Source: Strigamia acuminata | Lineage: Eukaryota; Arthropoda; Chilopoda; Geophilomorpha; Linotaeniidae | Length of the DNA stretch: 64,000 bases | Reading direction: 5' to 3' | NCBI GenBank assembly: GCA_949358305.1 | Contig: OX442314.1 | Location: forward strand, 7,309,060 to 7,373,059 | Shown here: piece after piece, positions 3,398 to 62,440 of the stretch | Layout: every line of letters begins with the position of its first letter | Numbering within the stretch: position 1 is the first letter of the stretch | Notes under the pieces: generated by a model | The model's database searches: none | Told to the model about the DNA's origin: nothing | What the model saw: the letters and a program-made list of their open reading frames with translations, nothing else | Program-made: the position numbers and the translations under genes

Positions 3398-3802
3398 AAG
3401 CTACCGCTATAAGAATATTTTAAATCTTTTTGTCACAATTGCAACACATTTGGTAATTTTAAAATTTTTTTTACTACCGGTACACACATTGAAATACAGT
3501 ACTATATGGTATTTTGTAAAACAAAACATACCGGTATACTAATCTACCTAATTGTCCATTTAAACTCATTGCATTCAAAATTACATAATGATTAATTTAA
3601 TTTACATTTTTCTGGCGTACTCTGTATTCAATTGTTATTATCGATAAGTGATTTAAATGTTTTTATGAATTAATAATGCAATAAAATTATTATAAGCATC
3701 AGCTTATCCGCAGTTTGTATGTATGTATGTATCAGTATACTGATCGTCCAAAAAATTAAGATTCTGAATGAAATATTGCACATCAAGGTCCACTGGTGAA
3801 TC
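3398..3802. other. Intergenic, AT-rich
   Basis: This is the region downstream of channel copy 1. I see no gene, only AT-rich sequence and short TACCGGTA and TATG runs. Confidence 0.6.
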
Positions 3803-19739: not shown

Positions 19740-19900
19740 TATAAGTATACATTGTTGGAGAGTATAGAAGAGCAACAAGTTTATCCAATGTCTCAATTGT
19801 TACGCGATGTCGGCGGTATTGTAAGATTATGTTTGGAATGTCATTACTGTCTCTCTATATCTGCATTTTAAACAGTTGTAATTGGTATAAGATGCAATTA
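19740..19900 (+). pseudogene. Decayed extra terminal exon (TM2) downstream of copy 2
   Basis: The sequence resembles the last exon of the array genes (AGAGCAACA...TCTCAATTGTTA.GCGATGTCGG...GGAATGTCATTACTGTCT). It carries indels and substitutions that break the frame. A similar relic follows copy 5 (62270-62440). Stretch 19373-19739 is otherwise AT-rich with no gene, and none is seen at 19901-20045. Confidence 0.7.
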
Positions 19901-20045: not shown

Positions 20046-21015
20046 TGCGATCCGGGTTTTTATCCACTTAATTTCTAATAAATTAAGCAGAAACCGCAGG
20101 TGAATGCTATAAAAGACTTACAATCGGCGGCCTTAAACTTGTCTAGGGTTAAGTTTATTAAGTAGGAAAATAAAGACACAATTTTTATGATAAAAATCAC
20201 ACAAATTCTTTATTAAGTTAAATACAATGAAATATAAAATATATTGACTAGTTGAAATAGGAAGAGCGACAAGTCGCGTAACAATTTGAGCGGAAAACAA
20301 TGGAAGGGCTTGCAACGACTGTTGCAAGCTACAAAGCGCTAAAATGGCGCTTAAACAACACACAGTTGTTAGGCGAAGGCGAATTGTCTTCGTTCTCTGA
20401 ACTCACGAACGATGGTCGAAGACGATGGTTCTCGTGGGCTCCTTCTACGGCTCGTGCGACGGCTCGGCGGCGGTGGTTGACGGCTGTAGGCGTCTGGTCC
20501 AGGTACGATGGCGATGGTTGCCGTTCGCGCGGCAACGATGGCGATGGTTCACTTGGATCAGGAAACTTCTTCTTCTCGTTTGCTGGAATTAGCTTCGGCT
20601 AATTCAAGCAGGATAGCTGGCTTTGTAATTCGTTACAAAGCAAGCTGGTGAAACTTGGAATACACGGTCCACTATCAATACGTATTGTCGGAGCAGATAT
20701 CGCAGTGATGTTGTGGGTTGTGTATTTTTGTCAAGAGTCCCGATTTGAGCCAAGACGCGAGCCCAGCACGCTTCAATATTGCGCAGAAAACCTGCGCACT
20801 TAGCTCAAGTGGGTGCAACTAGTGGTTATTACACCATATTGCACCATAACGGCTAATAACCGTTTTCACCCCGGACAACCTGGGGTGATATGTGCCTAGA
20901 GAGGATTTCTCCCCTCGGTCACATGATCTGACTTGGCGTGTGCCACAGTCAAATTAATTAGAAGACAATTAATTTTATCTTCTAAGTTGGTGAAATATTT
21001 TGAGATCACCACACA
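20046..21015 (-). repeat. 3' LTR of large LTR element (970 bp)
   Basis: The LTR reads TGTGTGGTGATC...GATCGCA on the minus strand. It pairs with 32455-33424 at the same length; I noticed one substitution (20809 against 33218). On the minus strand it is preceded by the purine tract AAATGGGGGGA (about 21016-21026), a typical polypurine tract. Confidence 0.92.
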
Positions 21016-23297: not shown

Positions 23298-23341
23298 ATG
23301 ATCGGGAAGCGCGAATGGCGTTTCTCGATCTCTCTCGATCT

Positions 23342-28000: not shown

Positions 28001-29296
28001 CTTGGTCAGATCTATAGTACTGACCCATTCGAATTCTCCGATTTCTCGCAGAATTTCCTCAATTGTTGGCATTTGAGGTGGGTTGTACTTAGTATGTGTA
28101 TTGATGGGGCGGAAATCAATGCACAAGCGTGGGTCGTTTCCTGGTCGCATGACTAGGACTGGCCGCATTCCGTAATCGCCTTCAGCTTTGACGACTACGC
28201 CTTTGTCAATCATGTCTTGACAAAGTTGTCTGATTATTTCCCTTTTTTGAGGGTTTATGCTCTTAAAGGGGGCACGGATGGGTTTCTCCGTGTCAAGCTC
28301 AATTTTGTGCTTAACCAGGTGTGTTTTACCTGGATCTTTAGAAATAATCCTTTTATGTTTGGATAACATCTTTTCTAATAATTTGGATTGCTCCAAATTT
28401 AAGTTAGCTTCTTCGACTAACTTTTGGATGAAATTCTCTTCATCAATTTTGCCTTGAGTTACACTTGCAGCATAAGCTTTTGCAAAGGTCATAAATGAGG
28501 AATCGGGTTCCTCCACTTTCTCCAAATAACGTTCCAGCAACGCTTGTGGAATGTAGGGTAAATCTGCATCCACAGGTTGCGTGAAATTCCAAGACATCGT
28601 CTGTGGATTAGGTTGGATTTTTAATTTATTCATAAAATCGCAACCCAATAGTACCATTGGATACTTATTTGGTATTACGATGAACGGATGACGTAATGTG
28701 CCATGTGTCCATCGAAATGAAAGATGGATGGTTCCATCTGGAGTGACTTCTTCACTAGCCGTCGTAACTCTGACACCAGGTCCGATAGGTCGTAGATATT
28801 TTTCTAGACCTAATTGATTAATAACTGAAGTGGCTAGGAAGCTCTTATTTGCTCCTGAGTCCAACATACCAGTTATTACACCTTTTAACGTTTCTAACTT
28901 TAACGTTGGAAGGTCATGGCTGTTTGGTATTCCAGCCACTTTGCACTCAAACTTGCGCAATTTATGATGAACTGTAATTGGAGGCTCCAAAGGCAGTTCG
29001 TCTAATAACTCATTGGTATCAAGAGTTGTAGCTGCAAATAACTTAATGCACTCCTCAATTCCGGGTGTCTCTGGAACTGAGCTTGGTCTATCGTCTTTAA
29101 CTTCGACTTTATCTTGAATATTGGAAGTGTCTTCTTCAGTCGGGGTTTCGCCGACAATCTCCTTTTTTACATCAAGAGATCCTTTTTCTTTTAGTTCTGT
29201 TTGACGAATTAATTCATCAATAACTTCTCCAACATCTTCCATTATCTTCAGATTTTCATTCTCTGATTCCGATTTCGGAGGTGACGCAGCGTCCAC
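25070..29296 (-). CDS. pol: Pol polyprotein of large LTR element
   Basis: The frame starts at GTG 29296 only because it is the first start-like codon; the frame is open back into gag. Approximate residues from 29296: aspartic protease with MLDSGANKSF (about 147); reverse transcriptase with AYLDDIIVV (about 493); RNase H (IVHTDASKQGLGAAL, TVQTDHQALKWL); integrase zinc domain (HPLSGHPG...CQGCQAC). The DDE triad is in SVDLSGPKP, IISDNGPQF and SNPVERTNR. The tail is acidic and ends in a YNLRSR-type motif. Pol is in the -1 frame relative to gag and is most likely made as a Gag-Pol fusion by frameshifting at 29323-29329. All catalytic motifs are intact. Confidence 0.93.
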   Translation of the reverse strand: MDAASPPKSESENENLKIMEDVGEVIDELIRQTELKEKGSLDVKKEIVGETPTEEDTSNIQDKVEVKDDRPSSVPETPGIEECIKLFAATTLDTNELLDELPLEPPITVHHKLRKFECKVAGIPNSHDLPTLKLETLKGVITGMLDSGANKSFLATSVINQLGLEKYLRPIGPGVRVTTASEEVTPDGTIHLSFRWTHGTLRHPFIVIPNKYPMVLLGCDFMNKLKIQPNPQTMSWNFTQPVDADLPYIPQALLERYLEKVEEPDSSFMTFAKAYAASVTQGKIDEENFIQKLVEEANLNLEQSKLLEKMLSKHKRIISKDPGKTHLVKHKIELDTEKPIRAPFKSINPQKREIIRQLCQDMIDKGVVVKAEGDYGMRPVLVMRPGNDPRLCIDFRPINTHTKYNPPQMPTIEEILREIGEFEWVSTIDLTKGYWQIELRPEDREKTAFWSPMGRLMFLVMPFGLVNAPTTFQELMEKVLGNVYRKFAWAYLDDIIVVSKSFEEHIKHLDIVFKKLAEANLHAHPGKTHLCRKELIFLGYKVGVEGLAVDPKKVAAITQFPAPTNLKELQRFLGMVNFFHRLIKNMATVAEPLRPLLKKDAEFDWELHHQAAFDAIKDLLTNAETMKMPDLYMPFIVHTDASKQGLGAALTQKKNVDGQEVEMPCVYASRSLQPAEKNYTVTELECLAVVWGLRKFRPYLEYTTFTVQTDHQALKWLMSLSDPSGRLARWQMELMAYSFEIQYVKGPLNVIADALSRAPVSAPDEPEDDGDNDDLLSYCPSPCRSWQMGKLNELPKSIIVNEDDQALINFCIKMHDPSGTPDVELRAMMAKKFELPTTNVLIKAFAAKIAKQLECDPPTRDDIIAAQKADKFCQHIRNYLLNKQYPSYIVTRLQRRNFERHASTYLIEEDMLLHYHPTSTDELGEDGRALKVVVPKKLIYKIIWLMHGHPLSGHPGIARTMYRTRRVYTWKGMKRDITRFIQHCQGCQACKPRSKTEIEGAQIGPFGPFDCLSVDLSGPKPRTRRNNTHICVIVDVATHWPELFPMCNPTAIKVANTIYHLSMTFGFPRQIISDNGPQFRSQVYKEFCKKFDMSRTPTSIYHPQSNPVERTNRDIKYLVSIYLDIHDQWDEYLREFAFSLRTTVTRGRDYSPAFLNFFRELRISWDPRIPEGILVIDPKNPHLYVQKLETIIAETYQHMMSHVLDLRRRVEAEKSDKKFDNFRQNDLVWRESHILSNAAKGIAAGISPKRNGPYVIVKRLQGGAFQLRRLSDNKIYPAVHGTELMPYFPVFNQEIWLEGEEVGQKTKNIVNTLDDVELSKIPVENTESSEKSKLKNNEVDEINKRLENVSLDENLEKEMFLEKEKISNNEENNSSDIGDDADDNLNKLDCTSRKSKYNLRSRVPRVKT

Positions 29297-29316
29297 TAGA
29301 CCTGATGGATCTGCGT

Positions 29317-32300
29317 CTACAAGTTTTTTCGAAACATGTCAGTTATGATCTTGACTGCTTTTTCAAACTCAGCTGTTGACACTGGTTTGTCCTTTTTAGA
29401 GGATGGGCAGTCTTTTTGCCAATGCCCTAATTTTTTGCATAAATTGCATGGATCAGTGGCAGGCGATTTCTTTTTCGTTGCTGCTGGTGAGGCAGAACGA
29501 GAACGAGCGTCAGACCGGCGCTCTGGCGACACCGCAGGTGACTTTGAATTCCTTTCTGTATTCACCTTTGATGCGTCAAATGAAACATTTTTTGATTTCA
29601 TTTTTGGCTTCCATTTGCCTGCAACGGGGTTATTTTTTGCTAACAACGCCGCTGCTTTGGCCAATAAAGCCAACGTCTCATCTCCTGCTTCCTCCTCCTC
29701 TTCAGCTTCTTCAGCTTCAGACGACGGAGTTTCAGCTCCAGTTATATTTGCATGTAACTTAGGAACTGAATGAGGATTTTTGACGTCCTTTTTGGAAGAT
29801 TCTTTTTTCGAACTCTTCCCTTCCACCTCGTCTAGAAAGTCTTCGTAACTAGGTGGCTGCAACAATTTCAAACCATTAAAGGTTTCATTGTTTTGCTCAG
29901 CGAGTCTTTTCTCTCGCTTTAAGTACGCTGACCTTTCGGCTTCTGTAAGGTAAGCTTTGTACTTTTCGTCAATGCGCAATTGATTGACCTCCATGAACTC
30001 ATTTAACTCGGAGAATTTCCCCGGGTCGGGAGCGTCCGACATCATCAGAATATTTTTACTATATTCTGTGAGACCAGCTCTGAACTGATCATCTGCTGTT
30101 GCATCAGTAACAGCATGTGGCATTCTGCCAAGCAGATTCTCTGCTCTTAGCATGTACGAATGTAAGCTTTCGCCTTTTCGTTGCTTAAGACATCGCCAGA
30201 GCGTCTTGATGTCTTCGCTCGATTCACCAAATTTAAACATAAATTGTTTAACGAAGTCATCCCACTTCGTGAAGTCTTTCCTGCGAAACCACTCCTTGAC
30301 ACCGCCAACTAGTATTCTTGGTACTAGATGGGCCAATGCACCTTCACAGCCAAAACTGTGAACTTTGCCTAGTTCGAATATTTCCAGCAAGAGGTTTGAC
30401 CCTGCTTGCCAACTTCCATTATAGGCATGTGGGATAACTCGATCCCATCTAATGAACTTTTCATCTGTTGTTTGATGAGTCCATTTATCAGAAGTAAATT
30501 CACTTATTTTTTGCAAAATAATTTTATCCCTTCTGCTTTTTCGCTGTTGTTGAGCATTTTGCCTCAACAACTGGTCAATCTCATCTTTCGTGTAGAAATC
30601 GGGTCTTTGGGTTCTACTACGTGTTCTGTGACGAGATCGCCCTCTCACACTGGGACGTGAGGAATCTGTATCTGACGCAGATTCATGATTCGGATTTGGC
30701 GGCGGATCAGGGTCCGGAGGATCGTCGCCATCTGGCGGACGACGGTCTCCATTTGGTGGTCCCCTTCCATTTCGATTGCCATTCGAATTATGGTCACGTG
30801 AGTGGCCACCTCCATGTCCATCTGAACTGTCTCCACCTGGTGGGTCACCACCTGGTGGATTTCCACGGTATCTCGGCCCATCACGGATGTCGTTATGACA
30901 ATCTCGTTTTGGTGAACCTTCTCGCGGATTATCGTGTGACCGTCCACGATCGTGTGGTTTCTCACGTTCTTTATTCTTTCTCTCTAGCAATCCGATTAAT
31001 CGGTCACTATTGCTAAAGAATCGATCCGAATCTTGTGGAACTTTTGGGGAATGATATTCGGTCGGGTCTGGTTGTCGCTTTCTCTTTTTGCGACTGTGAT
31101 GACTATTACGGCTTCCACGACTACTGCGTGAGTCATCACTGTCAGTCCAACTTGATTGTCGACTGACTTTTGGTTTAGCTGATGTTAAATCAATCAACTC
31201 AGGTGATTTGGAAGCACCTTTTTGCAAAACTGGGGCTGGCTTTGCAAAATTATCTTCGCCACAAACGTCTTGTACCTTTTGTACGACTACTGCAAAGTTC
31301 TCTTGTACCGTCAATAGATCTGCGCGAAGAATTTCGTTTTCACGAGCTTGCGCAGCTAAGTCGGCACGTAATAACTGCTCTGCAGTACTTTGACTTTTGG
31401 CGGCTTGACCAGCATCAATTACTGACTGCTGTCGAGCGAGAAATACTTCGTTTTCTCGTTGTGCTAATCTCTTAGCTCTTGCTGCTTGTTCTGCAGCATA
31501 ATTCTCGTAATTTCGAGAAGTGGAGGGGATTGCTTCCCTCGCTCGAACTGGGGCGGTTAGTTCGGCTGTCATTAAATTTGTGTTGGCTTCTCGCAAATTT
31601 GCGTTGGCCAATCTCAAATTTTCATTAGCAATTTCTAAATCTTTTTGTGCTTGATTTAGTTGCTCGAGCCTTTGTTGTTGCTCTTCGTCAGTAATTAGCC
31701 AGGAAGCTTTTTCCTGCTCTAATTGCAACAACTTAACATGGTCATTTGCACGTTGTTGTTTTAGTTCGGCATTTTGCTGCTGCATTTCTGCATGCATTCG
31801 CTCGAACTCTGCTTGCAAGCTTGTTCTGACGATTTCAACGTCTTTTTGGCTTTGTTTGCGAACCATAGCTTTGTGGATTTGTTCCACAGTCATTTCGCTA
31901 GTGACTTTTACTCCCTCGAGCCTAGCTTGCTCACGGAGTGCGTCCATCATGGTTACACGCACGGGAGAATGAGAAACTTCCATATTGGAGTTCTCCGAAT
32001 CTTGCTGTGCTGCACCTTGAACCGGTGATGAATTCAGCGAGTGCTCTGCACTTGATGATTGAATTCGTAAATTCAAATCATCGTTTTGCGACTTGGAACG
32101 GCCACTTCCAGTTGGATTATTTAAGTCCAACTGGCCGCTGGGCGGGGATGGCTGTTGTCGCTCCAATGCTTGCGTGAATTCATTCACGATTAACTGTGCC
32201 GAGTTACAGTTAGCTGTTTGATCCATGGCTTCAAACAATTCTTGTGACTCAGTCACTTCTTGATCCACGACTGGTAGATCGATCGCCACTCGTCTCTTCG

Positions 32301-32340
32301 CCGGCCTTCCTCTCGGTCTCTTCTCTGAAGGAGTCGCCAT
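29317..32340 (-). CDS. gag: Gag protein of large LTR element, 1007 aa
   Basis: The ATG is the first after the primer site. The N-terminal part is Ser/Gln-rich. Residues about 130-300 form a long heptad-like coiled coil (rich in Q, E, L and A). A central Arg/Ser and Gly/Asp/Pro-rich linker follows. About residues 600-750 carry a capsid-like retrotransposon-gag region (ending FVKQFMFKFGESSEDIKTLW). A CCHC zinc knuckle (CNLCKKLGHWQKDC, about 963) binds RNA. It is unusually long for a gypsy-type gag, mainly through the coiled coil and linker. It assembles the cytoplasmic particle. The last codons contain the frameshift heptamer leading into pol. Confidence 0.92.
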   Translation of the reverse strand: MATPSEKRPRGRPAKRRVAIDLPVVDQEVTESQELFEAMDQTANCNSAQLIVNEFTQALERQQPSPPSGQLDLNNPTGSGRSKSQNDDLNLRIQSSSAEHSLNSSPVQGAAQQDSENSNMEVSHSPVRVTMMDALREQARLEGVKVTSEMTVEQIHKAMVRKQSQKDVEIVRTSLQAEFERMHAEMQQQNAELKQQRANDHVKLLQLEQEKASWLITDEEQQQRLEQLNQAQKDLEIANENLRLANANLREANTNLMTAELTAPVRAREAIPSTSRNYENYAAEQAARAKRLAQRENEVFLARQQSVIDAGQAAKSQSTAEQLLRADLAAQARENEILRADLLTVQENFAVVVQKVQDVCGEDNFAKPAPVLQKGASKSPELIDLTSAKPKVSRQSSWTDSDDSRSSRGSRNSHHSRKKRKRQPDPTEYHSPKVPQDSDRFFSNSDRLIGLLERKNKEREKPHDRGRSHDNPREGSPKRDCHNDIRDGPRYRGNPPGGDPPGGDSSDGHGGGHSRDHNSNGNRNGRGPPNGDRRPPDGDDPPDPDPPPNPNHESASDTDSSRPSVRGRSRHRTRSRTQRPDFYTKDEIDQLLRQNAQQQRKSRRDKIILQKISEFTSDKWTHQTTDEKFIRWDRVIPHAYNGSWQAGSNLLLEIFELGKVHSFGCEGALAHLVPRILVGGVKEWFRRKDFTKWDDFVKQFMFKFGESSEDIKTLWRCLKQRKGESLHSYMLRAENLLGRMPHAVTDATADDQFRAGLTEYSKNILMMSDAPDPGKFSELNEFMEVNQLRIDEKYKAYLTEAERSAYLKREKRLAEQNNETFNGLKLLQPPSYEDFLDEVEGKSSKKESSKKDVKNPHSVPKLHANITGAETPSSEAEEAEEEEEAGDETLALLAKAAALLAKNNPVAGKWKPKMKSKNVSFDASKVNTERNSKSPAVSPERRSDARSRSASPAATKKKSPATDPCNLCKKLGHWQKDCPSSKKDKPVSTAEFEKAVKIITDMFRKNL
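29323..29329 (-). promoter_or_regulatory. -1 ribosomal frameshift site A_AAA_AAC
   Basis: In the gag frame the codons are CGA AAA AAC TTG TAG, so the heptamer A AAA AAC is in the correct phase for -1 slippage, two codons before the gag stop (29317-29319). The -1 frame is open into pol. I have not identified a downstream stimulatory structure. Confidence 0.85.
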
Positions 32341-32431
32341 TTTTCAATGAGGATTTAGAAAGGATAGAGAAGAAAGATAAGCAAGATAAAAATGGCGGGT
32401 AAATTTTAACTAACAAAGTTATACAATGACT

Positions 32432-32454: not shown

Positions 32455-33424
32455 TGCGATCCGGGTTTTTATCCACTTAATTTCTAATAAATTAAGCAGA
32501 AACCGCAGGTGAATGCTATAAAAGACTTACAATCGGCGGCCTTAAACTTGTCTAGGGTTAAGTTTATTAAGTAGGAAAATAAAGACACAATTTTTATGAT
32601 AAAAATCACACAAATTCTTTATTAAGTTAAATACAATGAAATATAAAATATATTGACTAGTTGAAATAGGAAGAGCGACAAGTCGCGTAACAATTTGAGC
32701 GGAAAACAATGGAAGGGCTTGCAACGACTGTTGCAAGCTACAAAGCGCTAAAATGGCGCTTAAACAACACACAGTTGTTAGGCGAAGGCGAATTGTCTTC
32801 GTTCTCTGAACTCACGAACGATGGTCGAAGACGATGGTTCTCGTGGGCTCCTTCTACGGCTCGTGCGACGGCTCGGCGGCGGTGGTTGACGGCTGTAGGC
32901 GTCTGGTCCAGGTACGATGGCGATGGTTGCCGTTCGCGCGGCAACGATGGCGATGGTTCACTTGGATCAGGAAACTTCTTCTTCTCGTTTGCTGGAATTA
33001 GCTTCGGCTAATTCAAGCAGGATAGCTGGCTTTGTAATTCGTTACAAAGCAAGCTGGTGAAACTTGGAATACACGGTCCACTATCAATACGTATTGTCGG
33101 AGCAGATATCGCAGTGATGTTGTGGGTTGTGTATTTTTGTCAAGAGTCCCGATTTGAGCCAAGACGCGAGCCCAGCACGCTTCAATATTGCGCAGAAAAC
33201 CTGCGCACTTAGCTCAAATGGGTGCAACTAGTGGTTATTACACCATATTGCACCATAACGGCTAATAACCGTTTTCACCCCGGACAACCTGGGGTGATAT
33301 GTGCCTAGAGAGGATTTCTCCCCTCGGTCACATGATCTGACTTGGCGTGTGCCACAGTCAAATTAATTAGAAGACAATTAATTTTATCTTCTAAGTTGGT
33401 GAAATATTTTGAGATCACCACACA
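32455..33424 (-). repeat. 5' LTR of large LTR element (970 bp)
   Basis: The partner of 20046-21015. On its right the purine tract and ORF3 end of another unit follow, so it is at once the 3' LTR of that truncated unit. Confidence 0.92.
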
Positions 33425-37213: not shown

Positions 37214-40200
37214 ATGCAAAATAATAATTTGGCGAGGCGACTACGTCCTGCAATTCACCGATTATTAAAGGATGATGCAAATAAACTGAGATGCAACATA
37301 ATTGGCTTTGATGACTTTGTCAATAGCAAACATCGTGGGGATAAGCGTCATGTGTTTTGGCTTCTTTTATTTTTATTTTGCACATGCATGTTCGCTTATC
37401 AGACTTACGATAGGATAATGCATTACTTAAGTTATCCCACGGTTGTTGACGTAACGAGCAGCTCTGAAGATGTAATTTTACCAAAATTGATGATCTGCAG
37501 TGGCAATACTAAAGAAATGGTCAGACTTTGGAATAAAAATCAAGAAAAACTTCAATTAAAAACCAAGACATGCTTTAACTCGTTGCAAACATTAATGGCA
37601 ATCCCAACTTATACCATAGAAGAACTTTGGAAAGCGACTAATTTGACGAAAGAAGTAGTGAGCGTAAAAATAAAAGTAAAAAATGCGACGATCCGGGTTT
37701 TTACTTAATAAATCGGAGAGACTTATAAAGCAATCGTCGTAGAGATGCCGTACAGGACTTCTACTCTGTGGCCAAATGTTTGTCTAGGGGAATGATTTTA
37801 CACAGAGTAAAGGAAAAATTAGATAGTTTTAATCGTTCAAAATACAAAGGAGGTATTATTTAAAATGTTTGGGGTCGATCTGGCTTCTTCTTCAAATGTA
37901 CACTCACAGTTGACCGTTGGCTCCAAGATGGCGTCGATGGCGTCGTGTGAGCGCGGGATTTTAGCGGAGTAAACTCAACGCTAAAATACCTTGCTGAATA
38001 TACTAAAATCCTCGTGGAGCACGCTCGACACGAGAATACGTCTTGCACACAGCGGTTCGATTATTACGGAGCAAGCTCGACGTAACAATCGGTCTTTACA
38101 CAAATCGCTTTGTGGAGTTAAACTCGACACAAAGCCTTCAAACTAACAGAGTAAACTCGATGTTAGTTTCACACAGAAATGGCTTAAATTACGCGTAGTA
38201 ATTCAAGCTAGAAAGTTGCTATTCCGTACAGTGGGTACAGACCAGCGATGAAACTCAATTCGTCCAAGAATCACAGATCACACTTTGCAGTTTTGGCAGA
38301 AGTTTGACACGGTTGTGAACAGTTTGGAGGTAGAATCAAGAGTGCGGGAAGAGTGGGCCAAAACCGTTTGGCTCGCTCCTAAATCTGCTCAGAAAAGCTG
38401 CGCAGATGACGAGTTGCACAACGATCACACACGGCCGCCTTCGGGTCGTGTGCAACAATTGAGCCGGGCACGCGCGAGGGGAAGGGATGCTCCGCCCAGG
38501 CACACGCCTAGCAGCATCATCAAAGCAATGCACGCTGCAGCGCGATTGGTTGACGCTGTTGCTGGGCCAAAACTTGCTGCAAAACACAATATTATTTGGG
38601 TAATATTGTGTCTTGTTTTATATTTTATTAATGTATGTTTTATTTCAATTTACATTAAAACAAAACATATAAGCTTGTTGAATATGTTTATAAGACAATT
38701 TGGAAATATGGTGCGCACTCAAATAGGAATATTTGAGGTCACCACAAAAAATAATAATAAAGAAAGTGTATTTTTAAATGTATTAAGATTGCGTTATTTA
38801 AACCCTTGATTTCATGCAGAGATATTCAAATTTAAACAAAACGGCTGTTTTGACAGAAACGGACAATTTTTTTGGAATATGCCCAACATTTCAATTTAGT
38901 AATTATAAACAAATATTTAGCACTATCTATTTCAATATGCTTTATCATTTATTGACATAGCTAAAGCTTCTAGTGACTCATTTGTTGGAGAACTGATAGT
39001 AAAAATAGAAAAGAATTATGATTACGTATGCCTTGCCGAGCCATACAGAGTAAATTTAATAAATTAAAATTATGATTTGTATTACTCCGTAATTTTTTTC
39101 TTTTTACACTTAGTTTTTCCTTATGTTCTATGATTTTGGGAGACAATATGATGTAGCACATCAATATATTGGTACAACAACAACAATTTATTTCAGTTAT
39201 AACAAAGTAAACTTTTATTTGAGAATGAAAAATTACTTCACAGAATCTAATTTTATTTTAACTTTTTAGTTCATATTTCTTAATTCACGTATAAATTCAT
39301 GTTCCAGAGAGAAGGAATATAAAGAATGCTATCGGAGTTGCCTATTAAACAAGTTTAAAAACGATCTGACATGCAGGTAGGAAAAGAATGTTTTTACAAT
39401 AAAAAAAAATCTAATCATTAAAAATCTTCTTTAACCTTCCCATAGCCAAGCCTAGTTTCCACCATTGCTAGCTAAGGTCGGTCAAATCGGCCTTCTTTTA
39501 AAATGCTTCTGCGCATGTGCAGAATCACATTTTTCCTGGTGCAATCGCATTTTTCCTGGTAAAAGCACATGTTTTAGGACTAATTTTAATACGCCACCTA
39601 GTGCAAACAGATGGCAAAGCAGTGTACGGCGCTCCCATTAAGGGTGTTTTATGTTATAAATATTAAATTATCTTAATAATAATTGAAAAACTATTTGTAT
39701 TTAGACATTATAAAATAAGAAAAAAAAGTTTTTGAGGAATACAAGTTAACCTCATTAATTAATTATCAGAAAAAAAAGAATTACAGTGATTTTTCCACTT
39801 CTGTAATTTTTTTGACCTACCATGGCTATGGGAAGGTTAAAGATTTCCCTTCATGAAAATTGATTTACCACTTTGCAAATGTTCAAACAATACAAACGAA
39901 AAATACAGTGCTGTAAAGAAACTGATTGAAACCATAAACCCAAGTTCTGATTGTCAATGTAGCATTCCATGTCAACAAATAACTATTACACCATCCATTG
40001 ATACAGGAATAGGAGATGATGACAAAACCTTATCTGTATCTTTAGTAATATCTGATGACAAAATTAGTGTGTATGAAGAACGATACATCTACAACGTTAT
40101 TGCTCTACTGTCAGATTTAGGAGGCAATCTGGGCCTGTTTCTTGGCCTATCATTAATTTCATTACCTGAAATTACTTGGTATTTATATTATGTTGCAACA

Positions 40201-41029
40201 AACATTCACCCAAAAACTCCCGCCATTAGGTTTCGCCATCTATATGAGATATGCAAGAAGAAAGTCAATGCAAGCAAAGAGGAAACCTTGACAACTGGAG
40301 TCTTAGATAAGCTTAAGTTTGTGCTGGTATTTCTGACAGCAGGATTCACTTTGTATTGCCTGCACATTCGTTTCAATTACTACATTGATGAACCGGTAAC
40401 AAAAACGGTTAGAATAGTTGAACGTCAATACACCGAGTTTCAGTCAATCACGATCTGTGGTGAAAAACAAAATAATGACATGGATGAAGCCAGATTACAT
40501 TTACTGAAACATGCTAACAAAACCTGCAATAAAATATCACCATGGCAATTGTATGGCAAAAACTTGTCACTAAACAAAATCTGGAAAATACTTAATGTCC
40601 ATGACAACATTGATATTAAGAATGAGGTATGTCGCATGCTATATGCTGTATATTGTATGTTACATTTTTTTCAAAAACAACTACAACCATGAAAATTATT
40701 ATTTTTGTAGAAACATTTGGGATACAAAACAGCGCTAAACATATCAATGAATCCTATGCCACTTCCTTTTGGTAATTGTTCTCAAATAAATACAGGTATT
40801 AGTTTACAGATTTTGTTTCTTTAAGTTGATGCTTCATATTACCAAACTTCTAAAATCTGAATTTTTGATGGTTTATTTTATTATTAAAAATAAAAATCAA
40901 AAACCTGATGCATTAAAAAATTGATTCTGATTCCAATGTTTTTCAGAAAAATCAGTCGACCTATTTGCTCAACTTTGCATTACATTAAACAATTTAATTC
41001 CTTCAAAACAATGTGACCAGCATCTAAAG
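37214..41029 (+). CDS. DEG/ENaC two-module channel, copy 3 (3' truncated)
   Basis: Inferred exons: 37214-37675, 38820-38898, 38961-39049, 39114-39206, 39270-39376, 39843-40626, 40711-40795 and 40947-41029, all open and in phase. Module 1 is complete: TM1 WLLLFLFCTCMFAYQTYDRI, YKECYRSC and CQCSIPC cysteines, TM2 GLFLGLSLISLPEI. Exon 6 continues into module 2 TM1 (FVLVFLTAGFTLYCLHIRFN). The three final exons, including module 2 TM2, are absent; sequence from about 41080 is repeats up to copy 4. Any product would have three membrane segments and an unfinished second ectodomain. A 1063-bp solo LTR lies just inside intron 1, leaving the GT donor intact. It is the most diverged of the array copies. 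It may be a pseudogene. Confidence 0.8.
37684..38746 (-). mobile_element. Solo LTR (family B, about 1063 bp) in intron 1 of copy 3
   Basis: The ends are TGCGACGATCCGGG and GGTCACCACA, as in family A, with a diverged interior and shared GTCTAGGGG block. It is flanked by runs of A (AAAAA on each side), compatible with a 5-bp target duplication. No internal genes are present. The inserted position is eight bases after the exon-1 donor. Confidence 0.85.
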
Positions 41030-44473: not shown

Positions 44474-47400
44474 ATGCGGAATAATAATTTGGTGAGGAGA
44501 CTACGTCCTGCAATTCATCAATTGTTGAAGGATGATGCAAATACATTTCGATGCAACTTAGTTGGTTTGGATGATTTCATTAACAGCAGAAAACATTGGA
44601 CAAAGCGTCACACCTGTTGGCTACTTTTATTCTCATTTTGCATGTGCATGCTCACTTATCAGACTTACGATAGAATAATGCATTATTTAAGTTATCCTAC
44701 GGCTGTTGATGTAACGAGTAGATCGGAAGAGGTCGTTCTACCAAATTTGTTGATATGTAATAGCAATACAAAAGAAATGTCGAGACTTTGGAATAAAACT
44801 AACTCAAAATCCAAACCATCACGCTTCGACTGCTTGAAGATGGTAAATACACTGATGGGAAACCCAACTTCCAGTCTAGAGGAAATTTGGGAAGCGAGTA
44901 ATTTGACGAAAGAAGTAGTGAGCGTAAAAATAAAAGTAATAAAGATGGAATAAAGTACGGAGTAATTTTTAATAAGTTAAAAAAAATTTATTTGAATTTG
45001 TTTATTTTGTATAGGGATATTCTAATTCAAACAAAACATTTGTTCTGACCGAAATGATCAATCATTATGGAATATGCTCATCAATTCAATTTCGTAAGTA
45101 TAATCAAAATTTACCACCATCAATTTGAATGCACTTTATTATTTATTGATATATAGCTAAGGCATCTAGCGAATCATTTGTTGGACAAGTCGTAACAGTT
45201 ACAATAGCAAGTTATGATGGCATATGCCCTTCAGCACCATACTTGGTAATTTTAATTAATTGCAAAAATAATTGTAGTCTACTTTTCTTTCCTTTGCCCT
45301 TAGCTTGGTCTTCATTTCTTCGATTTTGGAAAACATTTCGGGATGGGAATACAATATGCCGGTGGAACATCAAAAGTTTATTTGAGCTATAACAAAGTAA
45401 AATTTTATCAAACAACGAAAATTCCTATGCTTTACCTTATTTTATTCAAACATTTTAGTTCATTTTTCTGAATTCACCAATAAATGAATGCTCCGGTGAA
45501 GACGAATACAGAGAATGTTATCGGAGGTGTCTATTGAAGAAATTTAAGACGTTAAGATGCAGGTAAGAAATCAAAACAGTCAACAGACAGCGTGGCTGCA
45601 CATGTTAAATCACATTGTTTGTTTGTTGTTTGTTTGAGTTACCATTTCCTACGTCAGTTCCGTTCGTTTCCTGCTTGATTTCCGTTCGATCCCTACGTTT
45701 TTTCCGTTTTCTACGTGATTTTCGTTTTCTACGTGATTTTCGTTTTGTACGTAATCTCCGTTCCTCATGACATTCTGGTCCAATTGTTGCAGCCCGCTTA
45801 GTGGAGAGAACGATGTAGTTTCACATAAAAATATAATGATTACAAATTTTCCAATAAAGATTTCCCTTCATGAAGATCGATTTGCCGCTTTGCAAATGTT
45901 TAAAGGACATACAGATGCATCTTTTTGCTGCAATGCAGTTGATTCAAACTACAAATCCCATTACTGTTTGTCTCTGTCGACGTCCATGTCATCAAATAAC
46001 TTTTACACCTTCCACTGAAATTAGCGCAGAAGATGATAAAAGTACAGTATCTGTATCTCTAGCAATTGCTAATGACAAAATTAGCGTGTATGAAGAACGA
46101 TACACGTACGACGCAATTGCTCTTCTGTCAGATGTAGGAGGCAATCTGGGCCTGTTCCTAGGTATCTCTGTAATATCATTACCTGATATCATTTGGTATT
46201 TATATTATGTTGCAACAAATATTCACCGAAAGACATCCGTTGATAAGATTCGCCCTCTGTACGAGATATGCAAGAAGAAAGTCACTGCAAACAAAGAGAA
46301 AACCATAACAAATGGAGTCTTAGAAAGGTTTAAGTTTGCGCTAGTATTTGTGACTGTGGGATTCACTTTATATTGGTTGCAAATTCGTATCGACTACTAT
46401 ATTGATGAACCGGTAACAACAATGGTTAGAATAGTTCAACGTCGTTACACCAAATTTCCGTCAGTCACCCTCTGTGCTGAAAATCAAAATAATGCCATGG
46501 ACGAAACCAGATCACACTTCCTGAAACACACTAACAAAACCTGCAATGAGATATCGCCTTGGCAATTGTTCAATCACGAATTGTCACTGGTCGAAATCTG
46601 GGAAACACTCAATGTCCATGACGCAATTGATATTGAGAATGAGGTATGTCTGTACTAGTAGTATGTTATATTCCCAAAACAAACCCATCAATGAAAATTA
46701 TTGTTTTTGAAGGTGTTATATGGATATAAAATTAAATTAAATATATCAACGCATACTATTCCACTTCCTTTTGGTAATTGTTCACGAGTTAACACAGGTA
46801 CTTGTAATTGTAATGTGCTTTTGCGTTCAATTTATGTGTTAGTTTTTATTATTGTCACTTTTTACCACCCAGCTTCACCCTGAGTTTTTATTATGGCATT
46901 TATTAACAGCATTACCGTATTTCATCAATTCTTAGATGCACTTTTATTACCATACTAGCTGTGCCCGGCCATGCGTTGCTGTGGCTCATAAATAAATCCC
47001 GTGGAAATAAATCCCGTGGGAATAAATCCCGTGGAAATAAATCCCGTGGAAATAAATCCCGTGGAAATAAATCCCGTGGAAATAAATCCCGTGGAAATAA
47101 ATCCTGTAGAATTGTGTGTTGTATTTACGCCCAATAGATGGCGCTGTTTTTTCAAAAATGCATGTTTTTACCTGTCACAGGTGTGACATCTATATAAAAA
47201 CCATATAACAGCAGTCGCCTATTTGAATGCAAAAATAGCTCAAATCAAATTAAAGAAATAAAAAAATTGTTCAAAAAATTCCATTTATGCTGGCAAAAAG
47301 TTTGAGACCAAATGCAAGGGAATCTTACCCCAAATCATCATTGCTGATCCAACAACAAGTAACTGGCCAAAAAAGTGAAGAGAATAAATTTAATTTGGAT

Positions 47401-48697
47401 GGACCTGATGGTGTTCAACACTATTTGTATGATTTACATCGATCACCAAATCTATTTTTTGCTGGTAGGTGATTCATGACTTGGGGTGAAATTGCCTTGA
47501 ATGAAACATCAACTCCTGCATTTGTTTCACAAAATTCTGCATATTTTTCACAAAACTCTGCATATGTTGTTGAATTATTAGTCTTTTAAAAATTCTTTCT
47601 ACGAACTCATGCATCCGAACTTTTTATCCTGACCTTTCCAATACTTTTCAGAAAAATCAAAGGACCTAAATTCTTACCTTTTAATTACATTAACTAATGA
47701 ATTTCCTCACAAACCATGTGACCAGGATCTAAAGGTAATATTTATTTATTATTTATTGCATTCAACACTCCAATGGCGTTATTAAATGCAAAGATTAGTC
47801 AAAGAACATTTTGTCAATTATGGATAAATACTTGACACATAATTGTGAATAATAATAATATTTAGTTTTTCATAAATAATCTGGATGAAGACGTTAACAT
47901 TTTGGCACCTTTGACTTTAAAGTATGATTGGTGGAACTTAGTAACTCTTCGAGTACTTAAGGCAATAAATTAAACAAACAATACTTACATGCTTTTATTT
48001 TAACTTATTTTGATTTTAATGAATTAGACTATACAAAGAAATACAAAGTACAATCCATGTGAGCAGAACAAAAGTTCTTATCTCAAGTGTAAAAATGCTT
48101 GCATCCAAAACAATTTGTTTCAAACTGTTAACTGCAGGTAAGCCAATCCAGACACTTCACTTTTTACACATATCAATTACGATTTTATCCTGGTTGCAAC
48201 ACATACTGTAACTGTATATACGCATACACCAGTTGTTCAAAAAATACCTAGGCGGTGCAGTTAAGTTACATGCTACAATTGTTTTCAAATGTTTCAGATT
48301 ACCTTATTTCTGGAAGCCGGACTTACCAGTTTGTAACACAACAACAGAAATTACTACCGCTCATTTAACATATTTAAAAAATTTTGACTCAAATCAAAAA
48401 CAATGCAAATGTAGACTGCCTTGCAAAAATACTTTTCACAAATTTGTTTTGCATGGGAATGAGAATAAATTATTGCCTTTTTCTGCCACATTAATAGCTA
48501 TTGAATTCTCTGATACTTTCTTAGAGAGTATAGAAGAGCAACAGGCATATCCGACATCTCAATTGCTAAGCGATGTCGGTAGCATCATAGGATTAGGTTT
48601 AGGAATGTCTTTGCTGTCTTTCTATGTTTGCATTTTAAACACTTATACTTGGTGTAAGAATAAAAGGTTTTCGATGTGGTTCCAAAAGAAGAAATAA
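44474..48697 (+). CDS. DEG/ENaC two-module channel, copy 4 (intact)
   Basis: Inferred exons 44474-44935, 45015-45093, 45157-45245, 45304-45396, 45459-45562, 45860-46643, 46713-46797, 47652-47734, 47866-47961, 48028-48137 and 48298-48697 total 2385 nt, or 794 aa. Module 1 has TM1 at residues 48-64 with LPNLLIC after it, cysteine motifs YRECYRRC and CLCRRPC, and TM2 with GLFLGIS at 373-379. A cytoplasmic linker of about 40 residues follows. Module 2 has TM1 at 434-451, FPSVTLC at 475-481, YLKCKNACIQ, CKCRLPC and TM2 with GLGLGMS at 760-766. G-x-S in each TM2 fits the DEG/ENaC selectivity filter. The HG gating motif is not evident in either module. The family conducts sodium as plasma-membrane trimers. 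The intron after 47961 starts GC. A possible extra exon ends at 47464. This is the only copy with no visible lesion. Confidence 0.88.
46985..47107 (+). repeat. 15-bp minisatellite (about 8 units)
   Basis: The same AAATCCCGTGGAAAT unit lies in the same intron as 10381-10892, inside the GCTGTGCCCGGCCATGCGTT repeat. Confidence 0.93.
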
Positions 48698-56526: not shown

Positions 56527-57713
56527 TACCTTTTCACACCACCAAAAGCAGGTAAAAAGATCATAACATCTACACTTATTCTATTCAATAATTAAATTGT
56601 TTATACCGTATTTTACCGATTAACAGTAGTCCTTGAATTGTAGACACTCTCAAATAGTAGTATTTAACCTCACGAACGATAAACGTACGCTTCTTTTGTG
56701 ATGTTCAGACTTCGTTTGTTACATTAAACAAATGTAACAAATAAAAAACCGAAATTGTAAATGCTGACAAAAATGGCAGTTTTGAATAAGAGCCGCGGCA
56801 ATTAATCGACAAAATATGGTAATCATCAATTGTCATTCCAGAATAAACCTTGGATTTAAATAAGATACAATGCGGAATAATAATTTGGTGAGGAGACTAC
56901 GTCCTGCAATTCATCGATTGTTGAAGGATGATGCAAATACACTTCGATGCAACTTAGTTGGTTTGGATGATTTCATAAACAGTAGAAAACATTGGACAAT
57001 GCGTCACACCTTTTGGCTACTTTTATTCTCATTTTGCACGTGCATGCTCACTTATCAGACGTACGATAGAATAATGCATTACTTAAGTTATCCTACGACT
57101 GTTGATGTAACGAGTAGATCGGAAGAGGTTGTTTTACCAAGTTTGATGATATGTAGTCGTAATACGAAAGAAATAGCCAGACTTTGGAATAAAACTAACG
57201 CAAAATCCCAACCTTCACGTGTCGACTGCGCGAGCATGGTAAATGAACTGATGAAAATCCCAACTTACAATCTAGAGGAAATTTGGGAAGCGACTAATTT
57301 AACGAAAGCAGTAGTGAGCTTAAAAATAAAAGTAAAAAGATGGAATAAAGTAATTTTTAATGAGCTAAAAACAATTAGTTCAATCTTTTTATTTTGCATA
57401 GGGATATTCTAATACAAACAAAACAATTGTTCTGGGAGAAATGATCAATCCACTTGGAATATGCTCATCCATTCAATTTGGTAAGTATAATAAAAAATTT
57501 ACTACTATCAACTTCAATACATTTTATTATTTATTGATACGTAGCTAAGGCATCTAGCGAATCTTTTGTTGGACAAGTCATAACAGTTAAAATAGCAAGT
57601 TATGAGGACATATGCCCTTCAGCACCATACTGGGTAATTTTAATTAATTGAAAAATAATTGTTGTCTACTTTTCTTTCCTTTACCCTTAGCTTAATCTTC
57701 ATTAGGCGCATTC

Positions 57714-58414
57714 GAAAAGTCATTAAAACGAGTGTAAACGTGTTTACACTCGTTTCCACACGACATTTACACGAATTAATTCGTGTAAATGTCGTGTAAA
57801 CTGGTTAAACGGAAACGGCCTGTACGCCACGTTTCCGTTTAAAATCTCCGTGCAACGAGTTTTCTCGTTGAAATCGGGTCTTGCTGGCAGCCATCTTGGA
57901 TTTTCGTTAGATCGGTTGGAACGATGTCGATCGCAAGAACAATTTTTTAGCAGGTATTAGCCGCATTCTTGCGATCGAATGCGGCCGATGTTCGACCGCA
58001 TTTGTACGATCGAATACGGCCGACGTTCGACCGACGTTCGGCCGCATTTGTACAATCGAATGCGGCCGACGTTTGTGCGATCTGATGCGGCCGGTGTTCG
58101 GCCGCATTTGTGCGATTGAGGCGGATGTTCAGCCGATTCCCGTTCGGAATTAAATATTAATAATACAAATAATTAAAATAAATTTACATTTTATAATCAT
58201 GTTTTTATAATCTCCTGTTTTTTTTTTTAGAGTAAACAACAACAATAATGACTATGGTTATTATTTGGACTAATTTAATATTTACACTTGAATTTACACT
58301 ACTGAATTTTACACAGAAATTTATTTTGAAACTCGAAAATTGGGTCGTTTAACTTGAAATTTACACTACCAGTTGCACTGGTCGTTTAGTGCAAATTACT
58401 TTTCGAATGCGCCT
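57714..58414. mobile_element. 701-bp MITE inserted in exon 4 of copy 5
   Basis: The 17-bp perfect inverted repeats AGGCGCATTCGAAAAGT and ACTTTTCGAATGCGCCT are flanked by ATT on both sides. The paralogous exons are uninterrupted (CTTCATTTCTTCG). Inside are further palindromes (ACACGAATTAATTCGTGT) and degenerate repeats built on GCGGCCGA and CGCATTTGTRCGATCGAAT (57958-58130). No transposase is present. Confidence 0.9.
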
Positions 58415-60104
58415 ATTCTTACGATTTTGGAAAATGTTTCGGGGTGGGACAACTATATGCCGGTGAAACAAAAGAAGTTTATTTAAGTTACAACAAAGTA
58501 AAATTTTATCAAAGAACGAAAATTCCTATGCATCACCTTATTCTATTCAAAAATTTTAGTTCATTTTTCTGAATTCACCAATAAATGAATGCTCCGGCGA
58601 AGATGAATACAGAGAATGTTATCGGAGGTGTCTAATGAAGAAATTTAAGAAGCTACCATGCAGGTAAGAAATCGAAATAATTGCAAAGGGGCAGAGTCCC
58701 TACTATGCCAAACGTACAACTACGTGCAGAGATGAAGAAATGTTTGTGTTGTGTGTTTAGATGAGGTTGTGGGAGTTGTGAGTGTGATTTCTGGTTTTGT
58801 TGTTGTTTGTATTTGCTGTGAGTATTGGTTTGTGATGAGAGAAGTAAGAAATGTGTCGCGGAGATTCCAAATACCAAAACGTTTTCTTGTTATTACGCGC
58901 ATTTTGAGTTCTTAAACGCGTATCAACACAATACGCGTTTATATTGGGTTGTCAACAGACAGCTGTGGCTGCTTGTGTCACATTGTTTGTTTGAGTTTTC
59001 ATTCCCAACGTCATTTCCATTCCTGTGTCATTCCTGTCCAATTGTTGCAGCCCGCTTATTTGTTAGTGCAGAGAAAGATGTAGTTCTACATCAAAAAATA
59101 ATGATTACAAATCTTCTATTAAAGATTTCCTTTTATGAAGATCGATTTACCACTTTGCAAATGTTCGAAGGACATATACATGCATTATCGTGCTGCAAAG
59201 CAGTTGATTGAGATCACAAATCCCATTACTGTGTGTATGAAGAACGATACACGTACGACGCAATTGCTCTTCTGTCAGATTTAGGAGGCAATCTAGGCTT
59301 ATTTTTCGGCCTAGCGTTAATTTCGTTACCTGAACTCACTTGGTATTTACATTATGTTGCAACAAACATTCACCGAAAAACATCCGTCAATAAGATTCGT
59401 CTTCTGTACGAGATATGCAAGAAGAAAGTCGTTAAGAATAAAGAGCAAACCACGACATGTGGTGTCTTAAAAATACTTGCGCTAGTATTTGTAACTGCGG
59501 GATTCACTTTATATTGCTTGCAAATTCGTATCAACTACTACTTCGATGAACCAGTAACAACAATGGTTAGAATAGTTCAACGTCGCTACACCAAATTTCC
59601 CTCATTCACAGTCTGTGGTGAAAACCAAAATGATGATATGGACGAAGCCAGATCATATTTACTGAAACACACCAACAAAACTTGCAATGAAATATGGCCC
59701 TGGCAATTGTTCAGCAACGAATAGTCACTGGAAGAAATCTGGGAAACACTCAATGTCCATGATACTATTGATATTGAGAATGAGGTATTCTAGTATTTTA
59801 TATTAACCAAAAACAAATGACAATGAATGAAAATTATTGTTTTTGTAGTTGTTATATGGATATAAAATTAAATTAAATATATCAAAGCATACTATTCCAC
59901 TTCCTGTTGGTAATTGTTCACGAATTAACACAGGTAATTGTAATGTCCTTTTGCGTTCAATTTAAGTGTTAGTTTTTAATATTGTCACTCTTTACCACCC
60001 AGCTTCATCCTGAGTTTTGATTATGGCATTTATTAACAGCATTACCGTATTTTATTGTTTCTAAGATGCACTTTTATTCCCATACGTTGCTGTGGCTCAT
60101 AAAT

Positions 60105-60160
60105 AAATCTCGTGGAAATAAATCCCGTGGAAATAAATCCCGTGGAAATAAATCCCGTGG
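60105..60160 (+). repeat. 15-bp minisatellite (about 4 units)
   Basis: Same unit and same intron as 10381-10892 and 46985-47107, the shortest of the three arrays. Confidence 0.9.
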
Positions 60161-62259
60161 AATCTTGTGTTGTATTTACGCCCAATAGATGGCGCTGTTT
60201 TTCCAAAAAAGCGCGTTTTTACCTGTCACAGGTGTGACATCCATATAAAAACCGTGTAACAACAGTCCCCTATTCAAACGCAATGTTGTGTCAAAATTTT
60301 AAAGCAATCGGTGAAGAACGTTCGGAGATTTGGGGTCAGTAACGAACGAACATACATTTTTGTTTATATAGAACACAGTAAACACCTTTAAAAGCAGGGT
60401 GTGTCTTATAATCTGTGATATCTTAGGACGAAAAAATGTTTTCATGTACTTATCAATGCGCAAAAGGCCCAAAATCTACCTCGTATACAGTGCTGGAAAA
60501 AGGTTGGAGACCACTCCAACTTTCTTGGTTGTAAGTCAAATTTTGACTTACATGATAGTAAGGTATTGTATAAAATTATATGACAATAGTTCAAATTAAA
60601 TTAAAGAAATAAAAAAAATGTTTACAAAATGCCATTTATGCTGGAAAAAAGTTTGAGACCAAATGCAAGAGCTGATATTTCATTCAAGGCAATTTTACCC
60701 CAAATCATCATTGCTGATCCAACAACACGTAACTGGCCAAAAAAATAAAGAGAATAAATTTATTTTGGATGGACCTGATGGTGTTCAACACTATTTGTAT
60801 GATTTTCATCAATCACCAAATCTATTTTTTGCTGATAGGTAATTAATGACTTGGAGTGAAATTGCCTTGAATGAAACATCAACTCCTGCATTTATTTCAC
60901 AAAACTCTGCATATGTTGTTTAATTATTAGTCTTTTAAAAATTCCTTCTACAAACTCATGCGTCTGAAGTTTTTATCCTGACCTTTCCAATACTTTTTAG
61001 AAAAATCAAAGGACCTAAATTCTTACCTTTTAATTACATTAACCAATGAATTTCCTCACAAACCATGTGACCAGGATCTGAAGGTAATATTTATTTATGG
61101 AGTATTATTTATTGCAGTCAACACTCCAATGGAGTAATTGAATGCAGCAAAGATTAGTCAAAGAACATTTTGTCAATTATGAATAAATACTAGACACATC
61201 ATTGTGAATAATAATAATATTTAGATTTTCCTAAATAATCTGGATGAAGACGTTAACATTTTGGCACCTTTGACTTTACAGTATAATTGGTGGAACTTAG
61301 TAACACTTCGAGCACTTAAGGCAATAAATTAAACAAACAATACTTAGATGCTTTTATTTTAACTTATTTTGATTTTATGAAATAGACTATACAAAGAAAT
61401 ACAAAGCACAATCCATGTGAGCAGAACAAAAGTTCTTATCTCAAGTGTAAAAATGCTTGCATCCAAAACAATCTGTTTCAAACTGTTAACTGCAGGTAAG
61501 CTCATCCAGACACTTCACTTTTCACACATCTCAATTCCGATTTTATCCTGTTTAAAACACATACTGTATATACGCATACACCAGTTGTTCAAAATCACCT
61601 AGCCCTTTCAGTTCAGTTACATGCTACAGTTGTTTGTAAATGTTTCAGATTACCTTATTTCTAGAAGCCGGACTTGCCAGTTTGTAACACAACAGCAGAA
61701 ATTACTACCGCTCATTTAACATATTTAAAGAATTTTGACTCAAATCAAAAACAATGCAAATGTAGACTGCCTTGCGAAAATACTTTTCACAAATTTGTTT
61801 TGCATGGCAATGAGAATAAATTAGTGGATTTTACTTTCACAATAATAGCTATTGAATTCTCTGATAATTTCTTCGAGAGTATAGAAGAGCAAGAGGCATA
61901 TCCGACATCTCAATTGCTAAGCGATGTCGGTAGCATCGTAGGATTAGGTTTAGGAATGTCTTTGCTGTCTTTCTACATTTGCATTTTAAACACTTATACT
62001 TGGTGTAAGAATAAGAGCTTTTCTATGTGGTTCCAAAAGAAGAAATAAAATATGCGCAAGACAATTTTAAAACATTTTATGTTAGTTCAAAATTTATGTG
62101 TATTGATAATCGTTTACACTTGTTAATTTAAAGGCTATAAGAATAAGAGCTTGTTTATAAATTTTTGCAACGTTTAGGTGTAGTAAAGTTTGCTACTTTT
62201 GCACTTCAAAATCAACTCTCTACTCTCATTAATGAGTTTTCACATCAGAATTGAAACAA

Positions 62260-62440
62260 TATAAGTATGGAATTCCCTGATACATTGTTGGAGAATATAG
62301 AAAAGCAACAAGCTTACACAATATCTCAATTGTTAAGCGATGTCGGCAGTATTGTAGGATTAAGTTTGGAATGTCATTACTGTCTCTCTATATCTGCATT
62401 TTAAACAGTTATAATTGGTGTAAGAAGCAATACAATATCC
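62260..62440 (+). pseudogene. Decayed extra terminal exon downstream of copy 5
   Basis: GGAATTCCCTGATACATTGT, AGCAACAAGCTTACACAATA and TTAAGCGATGTCGGCAGTAT track the last exon of the array genes. A deletion at GGATTAAGTTTGGAATGTC breaks the frame. It parallels 19740-19900. Confidence 0.75.

Follow-up and report, generated by a model that had tools for sequence, protein, structure and literature searches.

A predicted chain of two DEG/ENaC channel modules and its gene family in the centipede Strigamia acuminata

By the textbook account, DEG/ENaC channels assemble as trimers from subunits that have one module each. In the centipede Strigamia acuminata, a stretch of 64,000 nucleotides (the window; C1:7309060-7373059 of the 237.5 Mb assembly) contains a gene of this family, here called copy D, whose predicted product carries two such modules in one chain. 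Copy D is a single gene of 11 exons on the + strand at 44474-48697, with exon boundaries set from the homologous exons of neighboring copies and from a Strigamia protein. Conceptual splicing joins the exons into 2385 nucleotides coding for 794 amino acids, with 0 internal stops. The frame opens with an ATG at 44474, preceded by an in-frame TAA 3 codons upstream, and closes with a stop codon ending at 48697. All 10 introns have an AG acceptor and 9 of the 10 have a GT donor; the donor of intron 9 is GC. A preliminary description of this locus, made from the sequence alone, had proposed a two-module gene in this span. Its start and stop were both correct, and the 11-exon, stop-free chain bears the proposal out once the exon list is amended. 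The two filters (GIS, GMS) and the two other motifs (LPNLLIC, FPSVTLC) also lie where it had placed them in the sequence.

Each module gives its own match to the ASC family of Pfam (PF00858), which is the result that the preliminary description had expected from a profile search. Module 1 (residues 1-413), taken alone, scores 88.6 bits (E-value 5.9e-25) and module 2 (residues 414-794) 78.3 bits (8e-22), the latter over profile positions 20-449 of 455; the curated cut-off is 23.6. ASC matches are also returned by the single open frames 44474-44953 in the region of exon 1 (6.1e-12) and 48212-48697 in the region of exon 11 (1.3e-11). The two modules are mutually 25% identical. In each of them, the match positions give the order of first transmembrane segment (TM1), ectodomain and second transmembrane segment (TM2). 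At a cut of 1.6, Kyte-Doolittle hydropathy flagged 3 of the 4 membrane segments; the TM1 of module 1 was missed, yet it lies inside the Pfam match. Both TM2 segments carry a G-x-S tract, GIS in module 1 and GMS in module 2, and at some other loci the filter of module 1 differs, for example GLA, GLC or DLS. The conceptual product of the conserved exon set would run TM1-ectodomain-TM2, cytoplasmic linker, TM1-ectodomain-TM2, and both ends of the chain would be expected on the cytoplasmic side with the linker.

The two modules meet inside exon 6. In copy D this exon comprises 261 open codons, with the TM2 of module 1, the linker and the TM1 of module 2 in a single frame; the chance of such a run at this base composition is about 2.5e-8. 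AlphaFold2, applied to exon 6 of copy D together with four more rows, gave a mean predicted local distance difference test score of 36, too low to be informative. Five places in the window bear this fused exon (copies A to E, one partial and one broken), and it is also found in the Strigamia maritima proteins T1JEH2 and T1JEG4. In all, 48 loci were read as sequence: the 30 best (including D, B and C; two are mutually identical), 12 distant ones and 6 (L053-L058) from the 29 places contributed by a query with a distant member. The frame is kept across TM2, linker and TM1 in 48 of 48, and the homologous phase-2 acceptor, ahead of an (F/L/Y/S)P motif, has its AG again in 48 of 48; the exon 6 donor occupies precisely the homologous position in 25 of 42. 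In an alignment of 45 rows, which counts copy D twice, the linker is 39 residues long in 33 rows and spans 36-49 residues across all 45.

These data bear on the possibility that the locus yields two separate single-module subunits, by alternative splicing, by alternative polyadenylation or by an internal start in exon 6. DEG/ENaC genes usually encode a single module, and the same genome contains one such gene (L052), with a stop 30 residues past its GAC filter. The linker string AAAG/GTTTAAG could act as a weak donor, and other members do have a methionine in the linker (19 of the 45 aligned rows), so an internal start is possible in some of them. In copies A-D, however, exon 6 is stop-free, and its stretch after TM2 up to the end of TM1 lacks an in-frame ATG, so module 2 would not easily be started alone. 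With the frame and the acceptor of the TM2-linker-TM1 exon kept at every locus read, separate subunits appear very improbable.

Table 1 Exons and motifs of copy D and positions of the neighboring copies in the window
Feature	Position	Strand	Basis or remark
Exon 1, N-terminus and TM1 of module 1	44474-44935	+	open frame, GT donor
LPNLLIC motif in exon 1, module 1	44738-44758	+	
Exon 2, module 1 ectodomain	45015-45093	+	AG/GT, in frame, conserved in copies B, C, E
Exon 3, module 1 ectodomain	45157-45245	+	AG/GT, in frame
Exon 4, module 1 ectodomain	45304-45396	+	AG/GT, in frame
Exon 5, module 1 ectodomain	45459-45562	+	AG/GT, in frame
Exon 6, fused: module 1 end including TM2, then linker, then TM1 and module 2 start	45860-46643	+	one open frame
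GIS, GxS filter of module 1	46161-46169	+	sequence
Predicted linker on the cytoplasmic side, 39 residues (protein positions 394-432), without Met and without stop	46212-46328	+	
Module 2 TM1 up to FPSVTLC (46455-46475)	46329-46475	+	sequence, hydropathy
Exon 7, module 2 ectodomain	46713-46797	+	AG/GT, in frame
Exon 8, module 2 ectodomain	47652-47734	+	AG/GT, conserved in copies A, B, C, E
Exon 9, module 2 ectodomain, GC donor	47866-47961	+	matches part of Strigamia T1JEH2; conserved in A, B, E
Exon 10, module 2 ectodomain	48028-48137	+	AG/GT
Exon 11, last part of module 2: TM2, including GMS (48602-48610), then a short tail and the stop codon	48298-48697	+	AG acceptor
Copy A, 5'-truncated: remainder of fused exon 951-1464, then exons 7-11	951-3400	+	end of last exon not fixed
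Copy B, full set of 11 exons; exon 1 frame broken by one additional T near 8024	7842-19372	+	
Copy C, exons 1-8 open (594 codons)	37214-41029	+	
Copy E, 11 exons recognizable; stops, deletions, altered splice sites	56870-62048	+	

Related proteins were matched only in Strigamia maritima, namely T1JEH2 (814 amino acids), T1JEG4 (395) and T1JA36 (248); the three protein searches returned 1 of 6401, 2 of 5642 and 1 of 2501 candidates, and absence elsewhere is correspondingly weak evidence. T1JEH2 is 48% identical to copy D over 693 columns; it is a rough prediction in which an early part is repeated and other parts are missing. T1JEH2 and T1JEG4 align with copy D without gaps through TM2, linker and TM1, and the same fusion, which the preliminary description had proposed to seek in related genomes, is therefore present in two proteins of a second species. 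Within the genome of S. acuminata, a distant gene on another contig (the C5 gene, L051) has 11 exons and 814 amino acids in one frame, with GC donors at exons 6 and 8. Its protein scores 159.6 bits against Pfam ASC (cut-off 23.6), and its modules are 26-29% identical to those of copy D. Copy D and L051 both depart from the rule of one module per DEG/ENaC subunit, having two per chain.

The fused exon is widespread in this genome. The ASC search scored 93 of 2094 candidates, the exon 6 search 146 of 1680 and the query with a distant member 138 of 1113; because only part of the candidates were scored, all genome totals are lower bounds. There are at least 93 Pfam ASC matches, and the exon 6 protein of copy D has at least 147 matches at E <=1e-5, of which 126 are stop-free from the filter to the next TM1, 4 cross this region but contain a stop and 17 fail to cross it. 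The distant-member query gave 138 matches with 30 new places, 29 of them spanning without a stop. Thus the fused exon stands without a stop at at least 155 places, 48 of which were read as sequence, the remainder resting on the range of the match and the lack of stops. The loci read lie on C1, C3, C4, C5, C6, C8 and C11, and the 12 distant ones are 21-31% identical to copy D over exon 6.

The flanks were checked at 129 places, taken from the 147 exon 6 rows with 17 fragments and copy A left out. An exon 1 match before and an exon 11 match after, on the same strand and within 10 kb, accompany the fused exon at 61; at 51 of these 61 no stop occurs in the three exons, the intervening exons lying outside the check. 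Among the other places, 26 have the exon 1 match only, 11 the exon 11 match only and 31 neither at this sensitivity. The other two match lists contributed 103 of 150 and 104 of 150 rows, short pieces and the most distant rows being left out. No sign of three-module genes appeared in the flank check of 129 places; only one pair of fused exons lies within 8 kb without an intervening element, and it belongs to the C6 cluster, in which detection of exons 1 and 11 is poor. As far as sequence can tell, copy D is not a one-off and belongs to an old, large family of two-module DEG/ENaC genes.

A fusion produced by the assembly or by gene prediction might be suspected from the quality of T1JEH2, with its repeated and missing parts. 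However, TM2, linker and TM1 occur in one exon of the raw sequence on all seven contigs named above and in another species. These many independent loci refute an artefact for practical purposes, and we give it hardly any weight. The central inference of the preliminary description, that each chain has two DEG/ENaC modules that must be squared with trimers, is backed by the fused exon conserved at 48 of 48 loci, by the Strigamia proteins and by the C5 gene.

The DEG/ENaC repertoire of this genome is very large as a whole, with two-module and apparently single-module genes on C1, C3, C4, C6, C9, C10 and C11 and clusters at, for example, C1:4.2-8.0 Mb and C6:3.7-4.2 Mb. Additional short TM2 exons are numerous on C3, C4, C9, C10 and C11, which is consistent with further single-module genes.

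Information on the origin of the fusion may be found in the gene structure. The intron phases 0,1,0,0,2, calculated from exon lengths, occur twice in copy D and also in L051, and the introns of the two copy D modules stand at or near the same places when a pairwise alignment is inspected by eye. The same phases in the same order are expected from head-to-tail duplication of one ancestral gene; the last exon of the first gene copy would have merged with the first exon of the second, leaving the fused exon. In a tree of nine module rows (that of L052 without middle exons, those of Strigamia and copy A partial), the 4 module-1 rows and the 4 module-2 rows are each set apart by a branch supported at 100/100. 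Module 1 of copy D and module 1 of L051 match with 137 bits, as against 57 bits between modules 1 and 2 of copy D. Because module-1 rows group together and module-2 rows likewise, the fusion predates the split of these subfamilies.

Some details of the exon model concern module 2. The donor of exon 9 is GC in copies B, D and E and GT in copy A. GC donors are recurrent in the family (position 47962 of copy D, its counterparts in B and E, and exons 6 and 8 of L051), and gene predictors may miss them. A further candidate exon of module 2 at 47381-47464 is open in copies D and E and resembles a channel motif. It was dropped because only 151 bases separate exons 7 and 8 in copy C, because copy A has no match and copy E has lost the donor, because T1JEH2 runs from exon 7 directly to exon 8, and because the intron phases match once it is left out. 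The stretch 47254-47464 of intron 7 is 83-86% alike in copies B and E; there is no room for it in C and no match in A. Intron 7 also contains a 15-base tandem repeat, AAATAAATCCCGTGG, with 34 units in copy B (10382-10893) and 7.7 units in copy D (46990-47104). Being common to both introns, it probably predates the duplication that separated B and D and has changed in length since.

The neighboring copies differ in completeness (Table 1); exons 9-11 of copy C were not found upstream of copy D. The ratios of nonsynonymous to synonymous substitution rates (dN/dS) over all aligned codons are 0.46 for D-C (95% interval 0.35-0.59), 0.42 for D-A (0.32-0.56) and 0.56 for D-B (0.38-0.83), and the interval lies below 1 for C-A as well. 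The family might be imagined as mostly dead, a tandem-duplication fusion that spread as pseudogenes, with copy D an accidentally open relic; all four other copies in the window (A, B, C and E) are broken or shortened, and several genomic exon matches contain stops. Against this stand the dN/dS intervals of the pairs D-C, D-A, D-B and C-A, the places where exons 1, 6 and 11 are all stop-free (51 of 61), and members that remain open at 21-31% identity to copy D over exon 6. A mostly dead family is judged even a little less credible than separate subunits.

Other elements accompany these copies. A repeat occurs three times, at 233-933, 20296-20994 and 32705-33403, with 92-96% identity; its first occurrence ends where the remnant of copy A starts and may have truncated that copy. 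Extra pieces of the last exon, with the TM2 of module 2, lie just past copies B and E (19747-19892 and 62266-62426) and are perhaps leftovers of an older duplication, and fragments resembling exon 1 upstream of copy B (5561-6288) may be what is left of another copy. Open frames as long as 757-1422 codons, at 14056-18195 (+), 21069-23339 (-), 25073-29338 (-) and 29320-32343 (-), are perhaps genes of mobile elements; the first of them lies inside the intron of copy B between exons 8 and 9.

Among proteins of known structure, the best match of both modules in the Protein Data Bank (PDB) is BRTNaC1 (module-1 profile 5.4e-22, module-2 profile 2.3e-16), a channel of the centipede Scolopendra according to its PDB entry and two reports (PMC12714832, PMC12804983). 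BRTNaC1 shares with the copy D modules a C-R-(L/F)P-x(5-6)-LP-x-C stretch, a short ectodomain and centipede origin. It differs in being a one-module chain of 431 residues, with three chains per PDB entry, whereas copy D has two modules in 794 residues. Second for module 1 is PDPNaC1 (PDB 9jf7; 1.5e-18), described in PMC12714832 as a proton-gated homotrimeric channel of centipede antennal neurons, 421 amino acids long, that lacks the canonical His-Gly motif and the knuckle domain. It is like copy D in being a centipede DEG/ENaC protein without a canonical His-Gly motif, and unlike it in having a single module; its gene has nine exons for that one module, compared with about six per module here. 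From this relatedness, the product of copy D most likely contributes to a cation channel gated by a ligand, protons or heat, and its role is probably sensory, like that of BRTNaC1 and PDPNaC1.

Several observations weigh against a functional two-module channel subunit. The canonical His-Gly motif before TM1 is absent in both modules of copy D, which have VG in module 1 and NG in module 2; this is not decisive, because PDPNaC1 also lacks it (PMC12714832). PDPNaC1 itself is absent from the PDB matches of module 2. An acidic residue (D or E) stands six places after the GxS serine in module 1, and none is there in module 2 of copy D, in copies A, B and E, or in 4 of 4 further close copies in which the end of TM2 was read. 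The loss is not family-wide, because the distant C5 gene retains a D at this position of module 2; in D and its close copies it hints that the two modules may have unequal roles. Inclusion of exon 9 requires the GC donor, and skipping this exon would preserve the frame. Copy D is the sole intact copy of the five in the window; in the closest pair, D-B, the dN/dS of module 1 is weak evidence of constraint (0.71, 0.44-1.18), and every interval for the linker includes 1. Some places in the genome-wide count may be assembly duplicates or very recent duplicates (C32/C1, C50/C4, L011/L012 and four C6 places at 1.77-1.81 Mb). With these points weighed, it still seems rather probable that copy D is a protein-coding, two-module member of the DEG/ENaC family and a cation-channel subunit, most likely with its modules side by side in a trimer.

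Duplication of a pore module within one chain is a natural feature of two-pore-domain K+ channels and of two-pore channels. There, two modules fit evenly into a four-fold pore, whereas two do not divide into the three-fold pore of DEG/ENaC channels. The favored arrangement, in which the modules of copy D would occupy two adjacent places of one trimer and the third would be taken by a single-module subunit or by a module of another tandem chain, is given about an even chance. In its favor are laboratory concatemers of ASIC channels: three subunits joined by engineered linkers of 19 residues yield functional channels (PMC10329638), and 2-, 3- and 4-fold chains of ASIC1a form acid-gated channels (PMC4529235). 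These constructs resemble copy D in having modules joined head to tail through the cytoplasm; they are laboratory-made with artificial linkers, whereas the chain described here is natural and old and is known from genes. The latter report argues for a tetramer, contrary to the trimeric structures; an ASIC tetramer of this kind would suit two tandem chains, each acting as a pseudo-dimer.

A lesser but appreciable possibility is that the tandem chain is real and either builds a linked pair of trimers from three chains, with six modules and two pores, or leaves one module idle. The GxS tract is kept in both modules of copy D, so either could line a pore, and the loss of the acidic residue after GxS from module 2 in D and its close copies fits an accessory role. 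Against linked trimers, a linker of 39 residues seems short for three module pairs across two side-by-side trimers. Taken singly, three chains building two linked trimers are unlikely, and a trimer formed by module 1 alone, with module 2 as a tethered regulator, is unlikely to a similar degree. Side-by-side placement of both modules in one trimer remains the preferred arrangement. A further scheme, put forward tentatively and rather doubtful in itself, extends to the centipede receptor family (at least 155 places): the tandem chain would supply two-thirds of each trimer and perhaps a shared single-module partner the rest, resembling the co-receptor scheme of insect odorant receptors.

The modules conform to the known DEG/ENaC type, judging from their motifs and profile matches, and the two-module architecture of the chain was not found described in the open-access literature. 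No natural tandem DEG/ENaC protein was found there, by a search part of whose phrasing misses the spelling DEG/ENaC, in agreement with the statement of the preliminary description that no such subunit is known. ENaC, degenerin, sodium channel and pickpocket are unmentioned in the main text of the Strigamia genome paper (PMC4244043), as are tandem, fused and duplicat- in a 2022 review (PMC10148893).

A natural, old and widely duplicated two-module chain would pose a symmetry puzzle for a channel of three-fold symmetry. It would also be the natural counterpart of the laboratory concatemers that are used to fix subunit order. More broadly, these genes indicate that centipedes have a large receptor-like family that is apparently undescribed.

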